Below the pieces are notes generated by a model that worked only from the letters and a program-made list of their open reading frames with translations, did not search any database and was not told the origin of the DNA. Below, piece after piece: positions 4,541 to 20,317 of a stretch of DNA of 28,134 nucleotides. Every line of letters starts with the position of its first letter. Positions within the stretch are counted from its first letter, which is position 1. Source of the DNA: a virus; IMG/VR virus record IMGVR_UViG_3300036985_001348, positions 1 to 28,134 of that record. One strand, 5' to 3'. Made by a program: the position numbers and the translations under genes.

Positions 4541-5694
4541 TAGAATACACGCCAGTATTCGCCGCAAATAAAGAAGCTTACGATAGCGGGCTGTATAGGT
4601 TTATTGGCAATGAGGGTAGCAGTAGAAGCAGTAAATCTTATTCATTAGCGCAGTTAATTGTAGTGATTGCCATGACTGAAAAGCGCGAGATTACAATTAC
4701 TGGCCCATCGTTACCGCATTTGAAGCGTGGTGCTATGAAGGATGTTTTGGATGTTGTGAAAGGCTGGGATCTGTATAAAGAAGATAACCACAACAAGACA
4801 GATCAGATACTAAAATTCCCATCAACGGGAAGTTACATTGAATTTTTTGGTATTGAAGATGTGGGCAAACTAAGGGGGCCAGGGCGTGATATATTGTGGA
4901 TGAACGAAATGAACCTACAACCAAAAGCAGCTTACACGCAGTTATCTTTAAGAACGAGAAAAACTATATTTGGTGATTGGAACCCAGCAGATGAATTCAG
5001 CTACGTTTACGAATTAGCCGATAGGGAAGGCAATAAAAAGATACATTCAACATATCTAAATAATTTGCAATTCCTTACGCAAGAGCAGATAAATGAGATT
5101 GAGAGCCTACAAGATGCAGATGAAAACTTATGGAAGGTGTTTGGCCTTGGGTTGCGTGGAACATCAACAGAAACGATTTACACGCATTGGAAAACAATAG
5201 ATCATTTCCCAGATTGTGATAGGGTTGTTTATGGTTTGGATTTCGGTTTTAATCATCCAAACGTATTAACAAAGGTGGGGCTTATGGATGATAAGTTGTA
5301 TATTGAAGAAATGATTTACGAAAGTAAACTAACAACAGATGATCTTTGCTATGCCATTAAAGCATTAGGTTTAAACGCAAGCCATAAGATTTATTGTGAT
5401 TCTGCACGGCCAGATACCATCGAAGAAATGAACCGCGCGGGGCTTTGGGCGGTATCTTCTAACAAGTCTGTATGGGATGGAATACAGTTCGTAAAAAGTA
5501 AGCCGCTTTATATTACGAAAAATTCTATAAATTTGTTGAAAGAAATTAAATCGTATAAGTGGATGAAGGATAAAAACGACATTGTACAAGAACAACCCGT
5601 TAAATTTAAAGATGATGGGATGGATTCAATGCGTTATGCTGCGTTCACTGAATTTTCACAACCTTTAATTACATACGCCGGTGCAGATTATTAG
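4522..5694 (+). CDS. terL: Terminase large subunit
   Basis: The ATP-driven DNA packaging motor and headful/site nuclease, 390 residues. ATPase features: Walker A-type GNEGSSRSSKSY (29-40), Walker B ILWMNEMN (124-131) with catalytic glutamate, and a coupling-like FGDWNPADEF (150-159). RNase H-like nuclease: YGLDFGFNHP (Asp240), IYCDSARPDTIEEM (Asp293) and DDGMDSMRYA (Asp365/Asp368), giving the expected acidic cluster. The motif set is closest to the PBSX/Terminase_3-type group. It begins within the preceding methyltransferase gene and its own end overlaps the portal gene by 14 bases. Confidence 0.95.
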   Translation: MANSRVIEYTPVFAANKEAYDSGLYRFIGNEGSSRSSKSYSLAQLIVVIAMTEKREITITGPSLPHLKRGAMKDVLDVVKGWDLYKEDNHNKTDQILKFPSTGSYIEFFGIEDVGKLRGPGRDILWMNEMNLQPKAAYTQLSLRTRKTIFGDWNPADEFSYVYELADREGNKKIHSTYLNNLQFLTQEQINEIESLQDADENLWKVFGLGLRGTSTETIYTHWKTIDHFPDCDRVVYGLDFGFNHPNVLTKVGLMDDKLYIEEMIYESKLTTDDLCYAIKALGLNASHKIYCDSARPDTIEEMNRAGLWAVSSNKSVWDGIQFVKSKPLYITKNSINLLKEIKSYKWMKDKNDIVQEQPVKFKDDGMDSMRYAAFTEFSQPLITYAGADY

Positions 5695-12153: not shown

Positions 12154-12552
12154 ATGGTAGATTTAAACACATTAGGGCAAGCAGAACCATTAACCGGATT
12201 GGAGCAACTACCATTGCTACAGAACGGCATTTGGGTATTGGGTAGGCTTGCAGATGTGTTGAACCTTACACCGCCAACGATTGCCACAGCACCAACTGCA
12301 TTTGCAGCAGTTGCATTTGATGAATCACAAATAGATTTAACTTGGAGTGGCAGCGCAGATAATTATGTTTTAGAATCAACAAGAGGTGATAGCGGTGATT
12401 CTTATGTTGAGATTTACAGCGGTGCAACGGCATCATACAGTGATACGTTATTATTCCCAGAAGAAACGTATTACTACAGATTAAGAGCGCAAGAAGCAGG
12501 GCAAGCAGATTCAATTTTTGTATTTACTGATGAAACAACGCCAGCAGCATGA
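12154..12552 (+). CDS. Fibronectin type III-like decoration protein
   Basis: A 132-residue protein. After a 40-residue leader (NTLGQAEPLTGLEQLPLLQN) it carries one Fn3/Ig-like domain: ATAPTAFAAVAFDESQIDLT, WSGSADNYVLEST, SYVEIYSGATASYSDT, and the diagnostic ETYYYRLRAQEAGQ followed by DSIFVFTDET. Fn3-like domains on virions usually give weak carbohydrate or surface binding. Its place among connector genes suggests a head or neck decoration. It overlaps the next gene by 4 bases. Confidence 0.72.
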   Translation: MVDLNTLGQAEPLTGLEQLPLLQNGIWVLGRLADVLNLTPPTIATAPTAFAAVAFDESQIDLTWSGSADNYVLESTRGDSGDSYVEIYSGATASYSDTLLFPEETYYYRLRAQEAGQADSIFVFTDETTPAA

Positions 12553-13579: not shown

Positions 13580-14020
13580 ATGGCACAAAGAACAGCGGAA
13601 GGTAAAAACTTAGTATTGTTGATTGATACCCTTAATACGGGTGCAAGCTACGATCTTGTTGTATGCCTTACAAGTAACAGTTTTGCTCGTACAGCTAATG
13701 TGATTGACGCATCAAGTAAGTGTGGAACTGAAAAGATTAACGGCGTAAAAGACCGTACAATTGCGCTTGAAGGCACAGTTCAGTTTGATCCTTCAGTTGG
13801 CAAACTTTCAGAAGGTGATTTAAACGACATCTTCGAAAATGATACCCGTGTTGCGTGGTTATTCGGCCCAGAAACTCCGGTGGCTGGTGATTACTACTAC
13901 ACTGGAACTGATGCTTTATTGAGTGATTTAACTTTGGATGCTCCGAACGATGGTGCAGCAACATTCAGCGGTACTTTGCAGTTGAGTGGTGTTCCAGTTC
14001 GTACGGTAGAAGGTTCTTGA
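13580..14020 (+). CDS. Major tail tube protein
   Basis: A 146-residue tube subunit, the main component of the siphophage tail. It has the usual beta-sandwich pattern: MAQRTAEGKNLVLLIDTL, VVCLTSNSFARTANVID, SSKCGTEKINGVKDRTIAL, the core strand EGTVQFDPSVG, LNDIFENDTRVAWLFGP and a final ATFSGTLQLSGVPVRTVEGS. It stops at a UGA (14018-14020). The frame stays open after that UGA for 219 more codons encoding a lectin-like domain, so a minor extended form of about 366 residues is likely. Confidence 0.9.
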   Translation: MAQRTAEGKNLVLLIDTLNTGASYDLVVCLTSNSFARTANVIDASSKCGTEKINGVKDRTIALEGTVQFDPSVGKLSEGDLNDIFENDTRVAWLFGPETPVAGDYYYTGTDALLSDLTLDAPNDGAATFSGTLQLSGVPVRTVEGS

Positions 14021-14023
14021 CTG
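14018..14023 (+). other. Candidate UGA readthrough site
   Basis: UGA CUG separates the tail tube ORF from an in-frame LamG-like ORF. No ATG lies between, no ribosome binding site is seen, and the downstream domain begins about 4-6 codons after the UGA. UGA followed by C (UGA-CUN) is a known leaky context in several systems. Confidence 0.5.
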
Positions 14024-14032
14024 CCTCAGTCC

Positions 14033-14680
14033 TTGCCTGAATTGTGGGCAATCTACGATGCAGCGGAAGGCGTTACGGGTACAACATCCGTAACAGCGTG
14101 GGCAGATCAATCTGGAAACGGAAACAATCTAACATTGGCAAACCCAGTGAACCCGCTTGAACTTGTAGCAGCTGAAATAAATTCGCTGCCAGCAATTCAT
14201 AGCAAATTTACGGGTGCTTACGGTGCTTTTTTATCTGGTACAAACGCATTGCCAGCATTTACAACGGGTGGCGTAGTTTGGGCAGTAGTAAAGCAAACAA
14301 CGGCCGATGTTTCAATAAATTCTGGTGTTACTAACTTTATGCAAGGCGGTTCAGAATTTGAGATTAAAAGGCATAATTTGGCAATCCCAGGCGCAATATG
14401 TGCGACTGCTTTAGGTTCTGGATTGGCTGGCGTTGCTGCTGCTAACAATGTTTATCACATCGTTAGAATGGTTGTTACAACAACTAATATGAAGTTGGCC
14501 ATCAACAACGGTACTGAAGATGTAGAAGCAGTGTTTAACACGCCAGCGGTATCAACTTTAACGATGTTTGGACAAGGTGATAAATACATTGCTTATGTTG
14601 CAATAGCAGCAGATTTGCCAAGTAACAATGATGTTACACAAATGGAGGCTTATTTAAATACAAAGTTCAATGTTTATTAA
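14033..14680 (+). CDS. LamG/concanavalin-like domain, probable C-terminal readthrough extension of the tail tube protein
   Basis: About 215 residues with the opening of phage LamG-like lectin domains: PELWAIYDAAEGVTGTTSVT, then the hallmark AWADQSGNGNNLTL, LPAIHSKFTGAYGAF, a long beta region (VVWAVVKQTTADVSINSG), and IAYVAIAADLPSNNDVTQ followed by a final EAYLNTKFNVY. These domains bind carbohydrate or decorate tails. It is in the same frame as the tail tube gene, separated by a single UGA (14018). The only separate start is TTG 14033 (or CTG 14021), without a visible ribosome binding site; the first in-frame ATG is far inside the domain. A fusion by readthrough is therefore more likely than an independent gene; a recent nonsense mutation is the other possibility. 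Confidence 0.72.
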   Translation: MPELWAIYDAAEGVTGTTSVTAWADQSGNGNNLTLANPVNPLELVAAEINSLPAIHSKFTGAYGAFLSGTNALPAFTTGGVVWAVVKQTTADVSINSGVTNFMQGGSEFEIKRHNLAIPGAICATALGSGLAGVAAANNVYHIVRMVVTTTNMKLAINNGTEDVEAVFNTPAVSTLTMFGQGDKYIAYVAIAADLPSNNDVTQMEAYLNTKFNVY

Positions 14681-15026
14681 AATAAAGGAACAAGGTTTAA
14701 GGTTTGACAACTACTGCTGGAATGAGTATGTAAAGAAAGTTGATTGGGAAAACTTAGCCGGCAGTAGTAATCAAGCGGCTATGTACGGGGCAATGAAAGC
14801 ATCTGCATACTTTGACGGTGTTGAATTACCAACTTGGCGCGAAGCAGGGGTTTTTATTACATCGTTAGAAGTAGAAGAAATGCAAAAGTTTGTAGCATCA
14901 TTTGAGGCTATGAATGAATGGAAGCAGTTTCTTGATTTGGCAAAGCAAACGATTGAAGAACAAACGCCGGCAGAAGCAAAAAAAAAGCCTTTGAAGGTAT
15001 CCGGCAAAACTACGAAACGGCCTTAG
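14670..15026 (+). CDS. Tail assembly chaperone (gpG-like)
   Basis: A 118-residue chaperone that coats the tape measure before tube polymerisation. It begins MFIKIKEQGLRFDNYCWNEY and continues NLAGSSNQAAMYGAMKASAY and EVEEMQKFVASFEAMNEWKQ, ending in a lysine-rich tail that contains the slippery run. Position between tail tube and tape measure is diagnostic. The last codons after the slip site (KPLKVSGKTTKRP) are only present in the unshifted form. Confidence 0.85.
   Translation: MFIKIKEQGLRFDNYCWNEYVKKVDWENLAGSSNQAAMYGAMKASAYFDGVELPTWREAGVFITSLEVEEMQKFVASFEAMNEWKQFLDLAKQTIEEQTPAEAKKKPLKVSGKTTKRP
14978..14987 (+). other. -1 programmed frameshift site (A9G)
   Basis: Nine A followed by G (zero-frame codons GCA AAA AAA AAG CCT) near the end of the gpG-like gene. 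Moving to the -1 frame reads AAA GCC TTT GAA and opens a 104-codon extension, as in lambda G/GT and related phages. Confidence 0.85.
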
Positions 15027-15301: not shown

Positions 15302-17339
15302 AGCACTATCGGTAACAGTCGGCGCAGATATAAACGATTTGCTTAGACAGATGAAACTGGCTGGTAAATCTTTGCAAGATTTTAAAGATCAAGCAAACAG
15401 ATTTAAAAAGGCATTATCAGAAGCAACTGATCCTGCAAGCGTTCTTAGATTAAACAAAGCAATTGAAGCGGCTAACGCTAAAATAAAAGCAATACAAAGT
15501 GCTGGTATAAATGCTGGCAATGGATTAGGAGGTATAAAAAAAGGTAGTGATACAGCAGGGCAATCCTTAATTAATTTAGGCCGTATTGCCCAAGATGCGC
15601 CATTCGGTTTTATTGGTATTCAAAACAACATTAATCCATTACTTGAATCATTCCAAAGATTAAAGGTTGAAACGGGCAGCACTGGCGGCGCATTAAAGGC
15701 ATTGGCAGGCTCATTAACTGGTGCCGCTGGTATTGGGCTTGCAGTATCAGTAGTAACTGGTTTGCTTACTGTATTAGCATCAAACGGATTCTTCAAAACA
15801 GAAAAGGCAGCCGATAAGGCAGCAGAAAGTTTAAAGACATTTAATGATAGTTTAAAAGATGCAGAATCATCTGCTTTAGCAACTGGTGTAAAGTTGCAAA
15901 GTTTTATTGATATTGCTAAAAATGGCGATTTGCCACAAAAGCAAAGGAATGAGGCGTTACAAGAAGCCAATAAAATATTAGGCAATTACGGCGAAAAATT
16001 AACCCTTGCAAATGTTGCTACCGCTGCAATTACAGAGCAAACAAAGAAATTTACAGAAGCGACTATTCAGCAAGCATTGGCTACTAAGTTTGCAGATAGG
16101 GCAGCCGATTTAATTATACAGCAAAGGGATGCATCCAAAATTTATGCTAAAGAATTACAAAAGCTAAATGAAGAAAGGGATAGGTTTAATAAAACTTTCA
16201 CTACAAATGCCACAGCATCAGAAGCTGCAGCGGCAAGATTACAACAAGGGGCAAGGGCTTTGCAAGATCAAGAAAAGGCTGTAGTTGGTGCTGCAAATAC
16301 TTACAAAACAATTACGGGTGAAGTAAAAGAAATATCTGCACAGCTAACAGCAGCGCAATTAGCATCTACTGGTTTGTTTGGGCAATTAGGCGAAAGATCA
16401 AAAGAAGATGCTACAAAGACAGTTAAGAGTGTAGAAACAATTTCATCTACATTGCAGAATTTACAAAAAGAAATAAACTTTTTAAATTTAACGCAATTAA
16501 CTTTTGGAACTGATGAATCAGCAGCCAAAATAAAAGAAATTGAATCAGCTATCAGAACGCTGATAAAAGATTTTAAAGTTGATCCGCAAGATACCATTAT
16601 TCAAAAGTTGCTTACTGGCGGTAAAGTTTTTAACCTTGTTGAAGGGTTAAACATTCCTGGCATAAAAGGGCTTACAGAAGAAGTTGGTAAATTAATAGAA
16701 ACAGAAGCAGCAACGGGGCCAACGCCTACTGTTACTGTTCCAATAAATGTTCAAGCTGCTATTGATAAAATTGATGTAGGAAAAATAGTAGGCCCAGATA
16801 CAGAATTTACAGCACAATTAGAAGAAGTTACAGAAAGGCTAAGGCAAAGTGTAGCAAATTCTTTTGCAACAATATTTGAGGGTATTGGCGCAGGCGTAAG
16901 CGCACAAGGAATATTTAGCAACTTCTTTAAAACAATATTTACAGAGTTAGGTGCTGGCGTTCAACAATTAGGTATTCAATCAGCAGCAGTACAAAAATTA
17001 CTTGCAGCATTAAGGGCATCATTTAGCAAGCCTCCGGGCATTGCTGCTGCTATTGGTTTAATTGCATTGGGTGGCATTATCAAAGGGCTTGCATCAAGAA
17101 TACAAGTGCCAGGATTTGCAACTGGTGGTACTGCGCCAGGCGGTTCTATATTAGTTGGTGAACGTGGGCCAGAGATTATCACAGCACCAAGAGGCGCAAC
17201 TATTACACCAAACGCACAAACAAACGCAATGCTATCGGGTGCTGGCGGCGGCACGGTAGTATTTAGAATACAAGGCAGGGAATTAGTAGGCGTATTAAAT
17301 AACACAAATGCTACGCTCGGCAGAAATGGGCAGGGGTAA
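15291..17339 (+). CDS. Tail tape measure protein
   Basis: A 682-residue protein that sets tail length and is ejected with the DNA. It has an N-terminal charged coiled-coil (LLRQMKLAGKSLQDFKDQAN to about residue 110), a hydrophobic segment GAAGIGLAVSVVTGLLTVLA near 145-165, a long helical middle, a second hydrophobic segment PPGIAAAIGLIALGGIIKGL near 580, and the usual C-terminal signature GFATGGTAPGGSILVGERGP followed by EIITAPRGATITPN. At about 1.5 angstrom per residue it predicts a tail near 100 nm. The start lies inside the frameshift extension of the chaperone gene. Confidence 0.93.
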   Translation: MPVEALSVTVGADINDLLRQMKLAGKSLQDFKDQANRFKKALSEATDPASVLRLNKAIEAANAKIKAIQSAGINAGNGLGGIKKGSDTAGQSLINLGRIAQDAPFGFIGIQNNINPLLESFQRLKVETGSTGGALKALAGSLTGAAGIGLAVSVVTGLLTVLASNGFFKTEKAADKAAESLKTFNDSLKDAESSALATGVKLQSFIDIAKNGDLPQKQRNEALQEANKILGNYGEKLTLANVATAAITEQTKKFTEATIQQALATKFADRAADLIIQQRDASKIYAKELQKLNEERDRFNKTFTTNATASEAAAARLQQGARALQDQEKAVVGAANTYKTITGEVKEISAQLTAAQLASTGLFGQLGERSKEDATKTVKSVETISSTLQNLQKEINFLNLTQLTFGTDESAAKIKEIESAIRTLIKDFKVDPQDTIIQKLLTGGKVFNLVEGLNIPGIKGLTEEVGKLIETEAATGPTPTVTVPINVQAAIDKIDVGKIVGPDTEFTAQLEEVTERLRQSVANSFATIFEGIGAGVSAQGIFSNFFKTIFTELGAGVQQLGIQSAAVQKLLAALRASFSKPPGIAAAIGLIALGGIIKGLASRIQVPGFATGGTAPGGSILVGERGPEIITAPRGATITPNAQTNAMLSGAGGGTVVFRIQGRELVGVLNNTNATLGRNGQG

Positions 17340-17342
17340 CAC

Positions 17343-19613
17343 ATGGCATACGGTTTAATATACACATCTGAATTTGATTCCTTTAAAGGGGCGGCTTGCC
17401 TTTTAGAAATAGACAAAAAAGACTTTGTCGGTAGTGATACGCCTATTGTTTGCGGTGGCGGTGCAACTGTGTTATCATGGGGGCCAGATGATCCAAAGGC
17501 GGCAATCCGTGGCGCAAGTTTAGATGTAGAACTTTTAAACGTAGAAGGCAGTTTTCCAATAGCAAACTTTTACAGCATCGAAGATGATTCTTTCAAAGTT
17601 AGATTGTACGAAAACGGGCAATTGGTATTTACTGGCTTTTTGGTGCAAGATGATTGCAGCGAGGTTGTAGATGATTTTACACATTCGTTAAATATTTCTG
17701 CTACTGATAATTTAGGATTGCTCAAAGATATTTCTTTAGATCAAGCAGCGTTTATCAATCGGGATATTATAATAAACGGAACTTTTGCAGTAACAAGCGG
17801 CGGCGGTAGTTATCCGGTAGGTTTATTTATAGAAGCCCTATCTACTACAGATTTACTCATTAATGGCGCATCAATTACAATTGATAACGGAATAACACCA
17901 CCTTACACAATTATCGTTGCATCTTACACATTCAGCGCAATCACTGGAGATTATACCATTGTTGTAGGCACAGCACAGCCATCCTACACAGTTTTAGCAG
18001 CCACAGTAGAGATTTACCGCCAAGATGATTTAAGGGGCAGAATACCGTTTACAGAACTGTTTAAACTATTAATGCGTGCTACTGGCTTAGAATTAAATAC
18101 CAAAGTATTTATGACTGTGTTTTGTGTTGGTGGTGCAACCGGTAGAACTTTAGAAGATGTGCAGATTGAACCGCAAACGTGGCTAAATAATCAAAGCTAT
18201 GATGATTGTTGGCAAATTATAGAAGATGTTTTAGGGCGTTTTCGGGCTTGTTTGTTTCAAGCAGATGGATATTGGGTAATATTAAGGCCAGATGAATTAA
18301 GAGAGTGGAACGGGCAGATAGTGGGTTTTGAGTATGATGCAGACTTTGTTTATGTAGATGCGGTAACAATGCCAGCACCAATAACAATTGGAACGGGCAG
18401 CGATATTGAGGCTGGGTTGTTATCATCAATACAAAGGCCGCTAAAGTATGTTCGTGAAGAATTTAATTACGAATTCCCAGAGAATACTTTATGCAATGGG
18501 CCTTTAAATGAATTAGGCAATTATAGAACATCTTACGCATCTGGTGCAAATGTTGTTACCGAATATGATTTGCCAGGATGGGAGCAAGGATTCGATTACA
18601 CAACGGGCGGCAATGGTTATATTGGTTCAAGTGCATTGCGCTTTATAAGAATAACAACAAACGCTGTAGGCAAAGAGATTGGCAGAACATTGGTAATAAA
18701 AGGCAATAGCGGGTTTTCTGATCCGGCTTGCGTTCAATCTTGTCCTATTGATGTTAGAATTGGTGATAATATACAATGGGGTTTTGAGTTTAAAACAAAT
18801 ACAAGCCAGCCAGGCAATAGAAACATTGGCTTTATAGCTGAAATAATAACAACCGCTTCGCCTACACCAAGAAGCAGCAATAACAAGCGTTTACGTTTTG
18901 ATGGCCGCTGGTTTTCTTGGAACGATCCAATACCGCCAAACATATCTATTTATCAAAATATACCAGTAGGGGAAAACACAAACAACTGGCAAAACTTTAG
19001 CATACAAAGTACAGAAATTCCCGTGAATGGAATATTAACGGTAAAGCTATCGCAAGCAGTGGTAGGCAATAATTCAAGTAAAGAAACAGAATACAGAAAC
19101 TTTAGCTTTGAAATTACACGCTCAATTGCAGGCGTTCAAAACATCATTGGCCATACACATACACAAACCCAAGAACCAGAGATTAAAAACAACAACGACA
19201 TCAATATAAAAATTGATGATGCGCCTTCATCAAACATTAGGGGCGCAATGTTTTTACCTACGTTTACCGGCCCATTGCAGAACCTTACTACATTATGGCA
19301 GCGTGGTATTGATGGCAGCGGCAGCGGCGGTGATCAATTTACTTTAGGGCAATTGATAACAAAAGATGAATTATTTAACAGAAGAAAAGATCGTGTTAAA
19401 TTAGATGGGAATATTTTACTTAGTAATCTCACACCATTATCTGTAATTCAATATACAGATATGATAGATAAATACTTTATATTTGGGGCGTTAGAAGTAA
19501 GCCATAAAATTGGCGAAACAAACGGGAATCTGTACGAATATTATACTGATGATGAAACGCTGATAGATTTAATTTCAGATTACGAATTTAACTACTTATA
19601 CAATACGAGATGA
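17343..19613 (+). CDS. Large tail / baseplate-hub protein
   Basis: A 756-residue, beta-rich protein directly after the tape measure. The start MAYGLIYTSEFDSFKGAACL is followed by CLLEIDKKDFVG, IRGASLDVELLNVEGSFPIA and VRLYENGQLVFTGFLVQDDC, the layout of distal-tail/hub proteins in Bacteroidota phages (N-terminal tube-contacting domain, hub domain with GRIPFTELFKLLMRATGLEL, then the WQIIEDVLGRFRACLFQADG region). The C-terminal third includes HTHTQTQEPEIKN and LGQLITKDELFNRRKDRVKL. Exact fold is not certain. It overlaps the next gene by 4 bases (ATGA). Confidence 0.75.
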   Translation: MAYGLIYTSEFDSFKGAACLLEIDKKDFVGSDTPIVCGGGATVLSWGPDDPKAAIRGASLDVELLNVEGSFPIANFYSIEDDSFKVRLYENGQLVFTGFLVQDDCSEVVDDFTHSLNISATDNLGLLKDISLDQAAFINRDIIINGTFAVTSGGGSYPVGLFIEALSTTDLLINGASITIDNGITPPYTIIVASYTFSAITGDYTIVVGTAQPSYTVLAATVEIYRQDDLRGRIPFTELFKLLMRATGLELNTKVFMTVFCVGGATGRTLEDVQIEPQTWLNNQSYDDCWQIIEDVLGRFRACLFQADGYWVILRPDELREWNGQIVGFEYDADFVYVDAVTMPAPITIGTGSDIEAGLLSSIQRPLKYVREEFNYEFPENTLCNGPLNELGNYRTSYASGANVVTEYDLPGWEQGFDYTTGGNGYIGSSALRFIRITTNAVGKEIGRTLVIKGNSGFSDPACVQSCPIDVRIGDNIQWGFEFKTNTSQPGNRNIGFIAEIITTASPTPRSSNNKRLRFDGRWFSWNDPIPPNISIYQNIPVGENTNNWQNFSIQSTEIPVNGILTVKLSQAVVGNNSSKETEYRNFSFEITRSIAGVQNIIGHTHTQTQEPEIKNNNDINIKIDDAPSSNIRGAMFLPTFTGPLQNLTTLWQRGIDGSGSGGDQFTLGQLITKDELFNRRKDRVKLDGNILLSNLTPLSVIQYTDMIDKYFIFGALEVSHKIGETNGNLYEYYTDDETLIDLISDYEFNYLYNTR

Positions 19614-20317
19614 GCGAAATAGTAAAAGGCGAAAATGTAACTGTTTTTAAATATGTGCAATCCATTAATGCATGGGTTCCATACGCTTGCGCTCGTTCAT
19701 GCTCGTTTTCGGTTGAAACAGATACTATTGAAACCTCAATTACTGGCAGCGGTAAATATAGAACATTTATACCTCGCTCGAACGCATCCACCGGATCATT
19801 AGAAGGGCTTACACAATTAGAAAAAGTAAACAACTTTAGCATTGCAGATTTAATTGCTATGCAAATTGCACATGAAATACTTTTAATGCGCTGGGAAGAT
19901 ATTTCAGACAATGGCGATGTGTTCACTAAGGAATTAGAAATGTTTATTACCAACACAACGCAAACAGCATCATTTGATAATGTGGCCACATTTTCTGTAT
20001 CTTTACAAGGTACAGGGCCAATAACATTAGTTTACACACCTACACCATTAATACAAGGGATCATGTACAGAAAAGAATTTATACTACCCGCCAATGATGA
20101 TTCTATTATACTCGCAGAATTAGACGGTGTATGTATTGATAATGTAATTTCCATAATTTTAGACAATAGCGATGCCAGCATAATAATTGGCAGCGGCACG
20201 CCAATCGGCCAAGAAGTAAAATACAATTCATCTGGTGCAACTATTACATTTCCGTTTGCAACAGACATAGATTTAAACGGTTATGTATCATATCAAATTA
20301 TTTATGAAGCAAGTTAA
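19610..20317 (+). CDS. Second tail-tube-like tail protein
   Basis: A 235-residue protein with a pattern typical of tube-fold proteins: SEIVKGENVTVFKYVQSINA, WVPYACARSCSFSVETDTIE, TSITGSGKYRTFIPRSNAST, EKVNNFSIADLIAMQIAHEI, LMRWEDISDNGDVFTKELE and TASFDNVATFSVSLQGTG. The last 90 residues are an extra beta domain. It lies below the tape measure and hub genes, so it is more likely a tail-tip ring or an adaptor for the fibre than the main tube. Function is inferred from pattern and position. Confidence 0.62.
   Translation: MSEIVKGENVTVFKYVQSINAWVPYACARSCSFSVETDTIETSITGSGKYRTFIPRSNASTGSLEGLTQLEKVNNFSIADLIAMQIAHEILLMRWEDISDNGDVFTKELEMFITNTTQTASFDNVATFSVSLQGTGPITLVYTPTPLIQGIMYRKEFILPANDDSIILAELDGVCIDNVISIILDNSDASIIIGSGTPIGQEVKYNSSGATITFPFATDIDLNGYVSYQIIYEAS

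Follow-up and report, generated by a model that had tools for sequence, protein, structure and literature searches.

Phages can place extra domains on part of their tail subunits by recoding. In SPP1 and in the Listeria phages PSA, A118 and A500, a frameshift extends the major tail protein (PMC8718954, PMC5009743), and the ratio of plain gp17.1 to extended gp17.1* in SPP1 is 3:1 (PMC8718954). In the 936 lactococcal phages, TpeX is a carbohydrate-binding module carried by recoding on part of the major tail proteins, and its binding to the host was shown (PMC6669499). Readthrough of a stop codon was first known from the A1 protein of Q-beta, and in alphaviruses readthrough of a UGA is increased up to 10-fold by a conserved stem-loop that lies no more than about 150 nt 3' of it (PMC8310308). 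Our searches of the open-access literature turned up neither a tailed phage with a stop-readthrough tail protein nor any account of such readthrough, coupled to an RNA element, in the tail gene of a dsDNA phage.

Here, we analyzed a stretch of 28,134 nt (hereafter, the window) in which the tail tube gene ends at a UGA and the same frame continues into a lectin-type domain. As in SPP1, PSA, A118 and A500, recoding would yield a plain and a C-terminally extended major tail protein; in contrast to them, the extension lies in the same frame past a stop instead of behind a frameshift, and it is LamG/ConA-like instead of Ig/FN3-type. The likeness to TpeX is that a carbohydrate-binding module would be put on some tail subunits, binding being in our case a prediction, whereas TpeX depends on a programmed frameshift and not on stop readthrough, is of the BppA type and belongs to phages of Gram-positive hosts. 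With Q-beta A1 the locus would share a UGA that ends a virion protein and that some ribosomes read, so that an extended form is made in small amounts, although Q-beta is an RNA phage and the proteins are unrelated. The layout of UGA-C with a stem-loop within 150 nt also resembles the alphavirus case, but the latter involves eukaryotic ribosomes and a polymerase fusion, and the analogy is one of layout only.

The tube gene and its in-frame extension

The window contains terminase, portal, major head protein, connector and tail genes, and is thus the record of a dsDNA tailed phage. The phages with this layout are uncultured and probably infect Bacteroidota. Among cultured phages, a search with the lectin gave no match, and a search with the tube gave one distant match, Flavobacterium phage 11b. 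The coding features discussed below are as follows.

13580..14020, + strand: tail tube (major tail protein) gene, 146 aa, ATG start, TGA at 14018-14020
14018..14029, + strand: stop and stop-anchored motif TGA-CTG-CCT-CAG, from the sequence comparison of relatives
14021..14680, + strand: in-frame LamG/ConA-like domain, 219 codons plus TAA, no ATG or GTG before the core
14033..14035, + strand: TTG, the start codon in a re-initiation model, found in the window clade only (ORF 14033-14680)
14670..15026, + strand: gene at the position of the tail assembly chaperone, from a weak phrog_344 match (E=0.083), position and a slippery site

The tube ORF matched Phage_tail_2 (PF06199, E=2.6e-10, 40.9 bits against a curated cut-off of 23.8) and phrog_1407, major tail protein (E=3.5e-23). 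The extension matched phrog_10356, virion structural protein, alone among PHROGs (E=3e-5) and no Pfam family; some 70 other phage loci encode sequences related to it. We modeled the read-through protein with AlphaFold, taking the TGA as W (mean pLDDT 73), and obtained a structure in which a beta-sandwich follows the tube fold. In Foldseek, the tube part matched the tail tubes of monocin, GTA, SPP1 and lambda, and the lectin half resembled lectin-type domains found in sialidases, among other proteins, with low TM-scores and a moderate model confidence. These comparisons suggest that the extension is a LamG/ConA-like domain, which might bind sugars.

The original prediction held that the tube frame stays open past its UGA, and this was confirmed: it runs over 219 codons (14021-14677) to a TAA at 14678-14680. 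It also held that the frame behind five other UGA stops (2164, 12552, 13127, 19613 and 23925) closes within eight codons, and indeed closure came within 6 codons; at a sixth UGA stop, 7124, the following frame closes after 35 codons. Each of the six overlaps the following gene by 4 bases, which leaves the tube UGA as the only one without such an overlap. Elsewhere in these phages UGA and UAG end genes normally, in agreement with the proposal that there is no general recoding. The claim that the second part has neither ATG nor ribosome binding site needs to be qualified. An ATG is indeed lacking ahead of the domain core, but the TTG at 14033 occurs 12 nt past the stop. Likewise, a GAAGG does lie 7 nt upstream of the CTG that follows the stop, but it belongs to the tube coding sequence and is present in lectin-less relatives as well. 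Two further genes of the window, of which one ends at 17339 and the other starts at 17343, are likewise in frame with each other, and in-frame adjacency by itself is thus weak evidence. For other LamG loci that adjoin an in-frame ORF upstream, the usual picture is a plain ATG at 3-4 codons and no tail tube.

Other observations were made in the window. The region 19610-20317 encodes a 235-aa protein that is a second match to phrog_1407, the family of major tail proteins (E=1.1e-19), and has ~90 additional C-terminal residues. A small protein encoded at 12154-12552 matched the Hoc-like head decoration family phrog_10993 (E=2e-8) and is another possible decoration domain. The ATG of the 14670-15026 gene lies within the final codons of the lectin ORF. 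Near the 3' end of this gene, GCA-AAA-AAA-AAG at 14976-14987 includes an A_AAA_AAG slippery site, and the -1 frame reached from it is open to about 15301, as in the usual frameshift of G/GT-type tail assembly chaperones. Two kinds of recoding would thus adjoin each other.

The stop codon in close and distant relatives

Close relatives in IMG/VR fell into two kinds. L001, L002, L006 and L007, whose tubes are 95-100% identical to that of the window, retain both the in-frame lectin and UGA-CUN-CCN-CAG-UCN-UUG. There is no difference between L006 and L007 in this region, and both have CTA where the window has CTG after the stop. In contrast, L003, L004 and L005 (tubes 97-98% identical) end the tube with UAA, lack the lectin, and have the next gene immediately after. 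It had been asked at the outset whether relatives keep the UGA or have a frameshift or a direct fusion at this point. The relatives found either keep UGA and frame or lack the lectin and then nearly always have UAA; a frameshift or direct fusion at the junction was found in none of them, and every member has the extension in the frame of the upstream gene. Between the window and its close relatives, the lectin dN/dS is 0.07-0.13; the differences between the window and L006 fall 28/13/76 on codon positions 1/2/3, that is, 76 of 117 at the third; and the first four codons after the stop show three changes among close relatives, all synonymous. The low dN/dS and the third-position bias indicate that the extension is coding and under purifying selection, the lectin-less relatives with UAA that it is optional, and the comparison as a whole that the stop is kept.

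Searches with the lectin alignment yielded L133, L134 and L135 (40%, 37% and 36% lectin identity to the window), and a Chitinophagales MAG provided L184. The layout recurs at these four divergent loci, each time in frame with the upstream stop. The protein upstream in L134 is a tube distantly related to that of the window and belongs to its family (phrog_1407, 4e-7). In L133, L135 and L184, it is an unrelated protein of 311-314 aa at the same gene-order position; gene order suggests that it is a tube, and a poor fold model of it matched no tail protein. As side observations, the L135 layout has UAG at 4968-4970, a codon that ends another gene normally in the same contig, and past 5675 in L133 a strong inverted repeat, AAGGAAGGGAGTGAGCTCCCTTCCTT, lies 3' of the lectin stop and is a possible transcription terminator. 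In a DNA-pattern scan with the motif and the WxDxSGG signature, only short frames were found outside the known clade, pointing to chance matches. Among 398 genomes of the order of the L184 host, a comparable locus was present in that host only, and almost all other matches lay within very long open frames.

The motif next to the stop has the form TGACTGCCCCAG in L001, L002, L133 and L134, and TGACTACCCCAG in L006 and L007. The stop contexts of the divergent loci are TGA-CTGCCCCAG in L133 and L134, TAG-ATTGCAAGC in L135, and TGA-CCACTTATG in L184. Thus, UGA-CUG-CCC-CAG is common to three of five lineages, L135 has UAG-AUU, and L184 combines UGA-C and, two codons later, an AUG. We considered that the encoded LPQ is kept as part of the lectin domain and rejected it: L133 has four extra codons before the domain and places LPQ at the stop, which shows that the position of the motif is fixed by the stop and not by the domain. 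Codon usage in the window disfavors CTG and CCC (6.4% of Leu and 6.5% of Pro), that in L133 less so.

A separate lectin gene with its own ATG would speak against the original prediction, and L184, a distant homologue, partly shows this with the ATG two codons past its UGA. Between the stop and the domain core, L133 and L135 lack any ATG, GTG or TTG, and the first such codon in L134 is a TTG at codon 10. Directly 3' of the stop stands CTG in the window, L001, L002, L133 and L134, and ATT in L135.

To compare stop usage with and without the lectin, upstream proteins were clustered at 90% identity, giving 34 groups. None of the five lectin-bearing groups uses UAA (four UGA-C, one UAG-A), whereas 26 of the 29 lectin-less groups do, the other three having a non-UAA stop that is never UGA-C. 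The association was significant (Fisher P=2e-4, and P=0.0017 on clustering at 70%), these values being approximate because clusters are related to each other. UGA-C, a documented inefficient terminator in bacteria (PMC5289835), is thus found in 4/5 lectin lineages and 0/29 lectin-less groups.

An RNA hairpin within the lectin coding sequence

We looked for 3' RNA structure, which is frequent in readthrough systems though not essential, and found a hairpin with covariation. The structural tests of this element were made after the fact. Its features in the window are listed here.

14021..14026, + strand: possible outer stem, 5' arm CTGCCT, from an RNAalifold consensus and suggestive only
14072..14094, + strand: RNA hairpin GTTACGGGT-ACAAC-ATCCGTAAC, 9 bp, 51 nt past the stop, with wobble-position covariation
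14100..14105, + strand: possible outer stem, 3' arm GGGCAG, from the same kind of consensus

A hairpin of 7-10 bp was present in 5/5 lineages, starting 51-69 nt past the stop, inside the lectin coding sequence and within codons for V-T-G-T-T-S-V-T or variants. Six of the pairs are dictated by the protein sequence, and the wobble pairs are free; across lineages, pair 6 varies among G-C, G-U, A-U and C-G and pair 9 between U-A and G-C. Counting pairs, 97% of cells were paired, and the covariation score was matched by 2 of 500 shuffles. Given the peptide and the codon usage of each phage, the chance of an equally stable fold was 0.009 for the window, 0.019 for L133, 0.024 for L134, 0.081 for L135 and 0.0014 for L184. 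The hairpin was absent from ~60 other LamG domains, including that of L217, which encodes the L135 peptide. Around the hairpin, the window and L134 are nearly identical while divergent elsewhere (P=0.0017), and they thus count as fewer than two independent cases.

The first 108 nt past the stop fold more strongly than at least 96% of control windows from the same phage in the window, L133, L134 and L184; in L006 and L135 their folding was not clearly unusual against such controls. A six-pair outer stem was predicted between CUGCCC beside the stop and GGGCAG further downstream; L135 and L184 lack this stem, and that of L006 contains one mismatch. Another pairing, CCAG with CUGG, appeared in some single folds and was rejected, not being common to L133 or L134. 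Taken from sequence comparison, these data suggest that the hairpin may help readthrough.

Probable readthrough and competing explanations

A weak stop followed by an in-frame lectin that mostly lacks a start of its own means that some ribosomes probably read through. We give roughly three chances in four to programmed stop-codon readthrough yielding a minority of lectin-bearing subunits. The comparison of relatives, the recurrence in divergent phages, the lack of a canonical start in L133 and L135 and the weakness of UGA-C support this reading, as the original prediction had proposed. In such a scheme, the majority of ribosomes would terminate at the UGA, followed by C within UGA-CUG-CCC-CAG, and release the plain 146-aa subunit. 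A minority would decode it, probably by tRNA-Trp, and continue for 219 more codons. The 366-aa product would display its C-terminal LamG/ConA-like domain outside the tail, where it might help the phage hold surface sugars. The hairpin 51-69 nt downstream, perhaps within a larger fold beginning beside the stop, probably would increase readthrough. Basal UGA readthrough differs widely among species, from 0.04% to 12% (PMC9481147). Several points go against readthrough: the L184 ATG, the UAG-A that L135 has instead of the motif, and the CTG or ATT after the stops as potential non-canonical starts. In addition, with the stop in the ribosome A site, the hairpin lies ~40 nt past the covered stretch, and the stem adjoining the stop would be open. 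The lineages are also not fully independent because the hairpin segments of the window and L134 are almost identical.

A possibility, unlikely though the strongest of the competitors, was that ribosomes terminate and then re-initiate at a non-canonical start (CUG, AUU or UUG; AUG in L184) 0-12 nt from the UGA or UAG, producing a separate lectin that is perhaps bound non-covalently to the virion. It would suit the codon that follows the stop, CTG in the window, L001, L002, L133 and L134 or ATT in L135, as well as the TTG retained 12 nt past the stop in the window clade and the ATG of L184; moreover, the other UGA stops of the window overlap the next gene, which indicates that coupled initiation is common in this phage. 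Yet a different start codon would be required per lineage, and the CTA of L006 and L007 fails unless UUG is used there. Re-initiation also leaves unexplained why the upstream frame is kept in 5/5 lineages, why UAA gives way to UGA-C or UAG, and why the motif is anchored to the stop.

It is quite improbable that the conserved stop region is a DNA-level or recombination boundary of a mobile lectin module, with the hairpin a by-product of shared ancestry and expression incidental or low. The near-identity of the window and L134 around the hairpin fits module exchange, and so does the motif behind unrelated upstream genes; however, lineages with differing sequences show covariation at wobble positions, and the dN/dS indicates a protein that is made and selected. 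That UGA is sense by design, extending all or most subunits through code reassignment, a suppressor tRNA or selenocysteine, fits its place in frame between two conserved coding parts but is the least credible of all: reassignment was rejected because other UGA and UAG codons stop genes normally, selenocysteine insertion because no Rfam family matched the region, where a SECIS-type element would be expected beside the UGA, and L135 has UAG at the equivalent place, and the window has no tRNA gene.

Beyond readthrough at this tube gene, we tentatively consider, as an idea somewhat short of even odds, that the locus is a portable readthrough cassette. It would combine a leaky stop in a fixed 12-nt context (UGACUGCCCCAG), a hairpin embedded in coding sequence and a lectin-type domain, behind unrelated structural proteins of different phages, so that virions would be decorated in part and in a controlled manner by RNA-stimulated readthrough on bacterial ribosomes.

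Adhesion domains on tail subunits are known via frameshifting, and stop readthrough, if true, would be a new route to them. The conserved stop context and the covarying 3' hairpin would offer a test case for whether RNA structure stimulates readthrough on bacterial ribosomes outside selenocysteine insertion, in the way of the alphavirus stem-loops. The lectin ORF would also represent a class of coding sequence that has no start codon, and gene callers overlook or shorten such ORFs.
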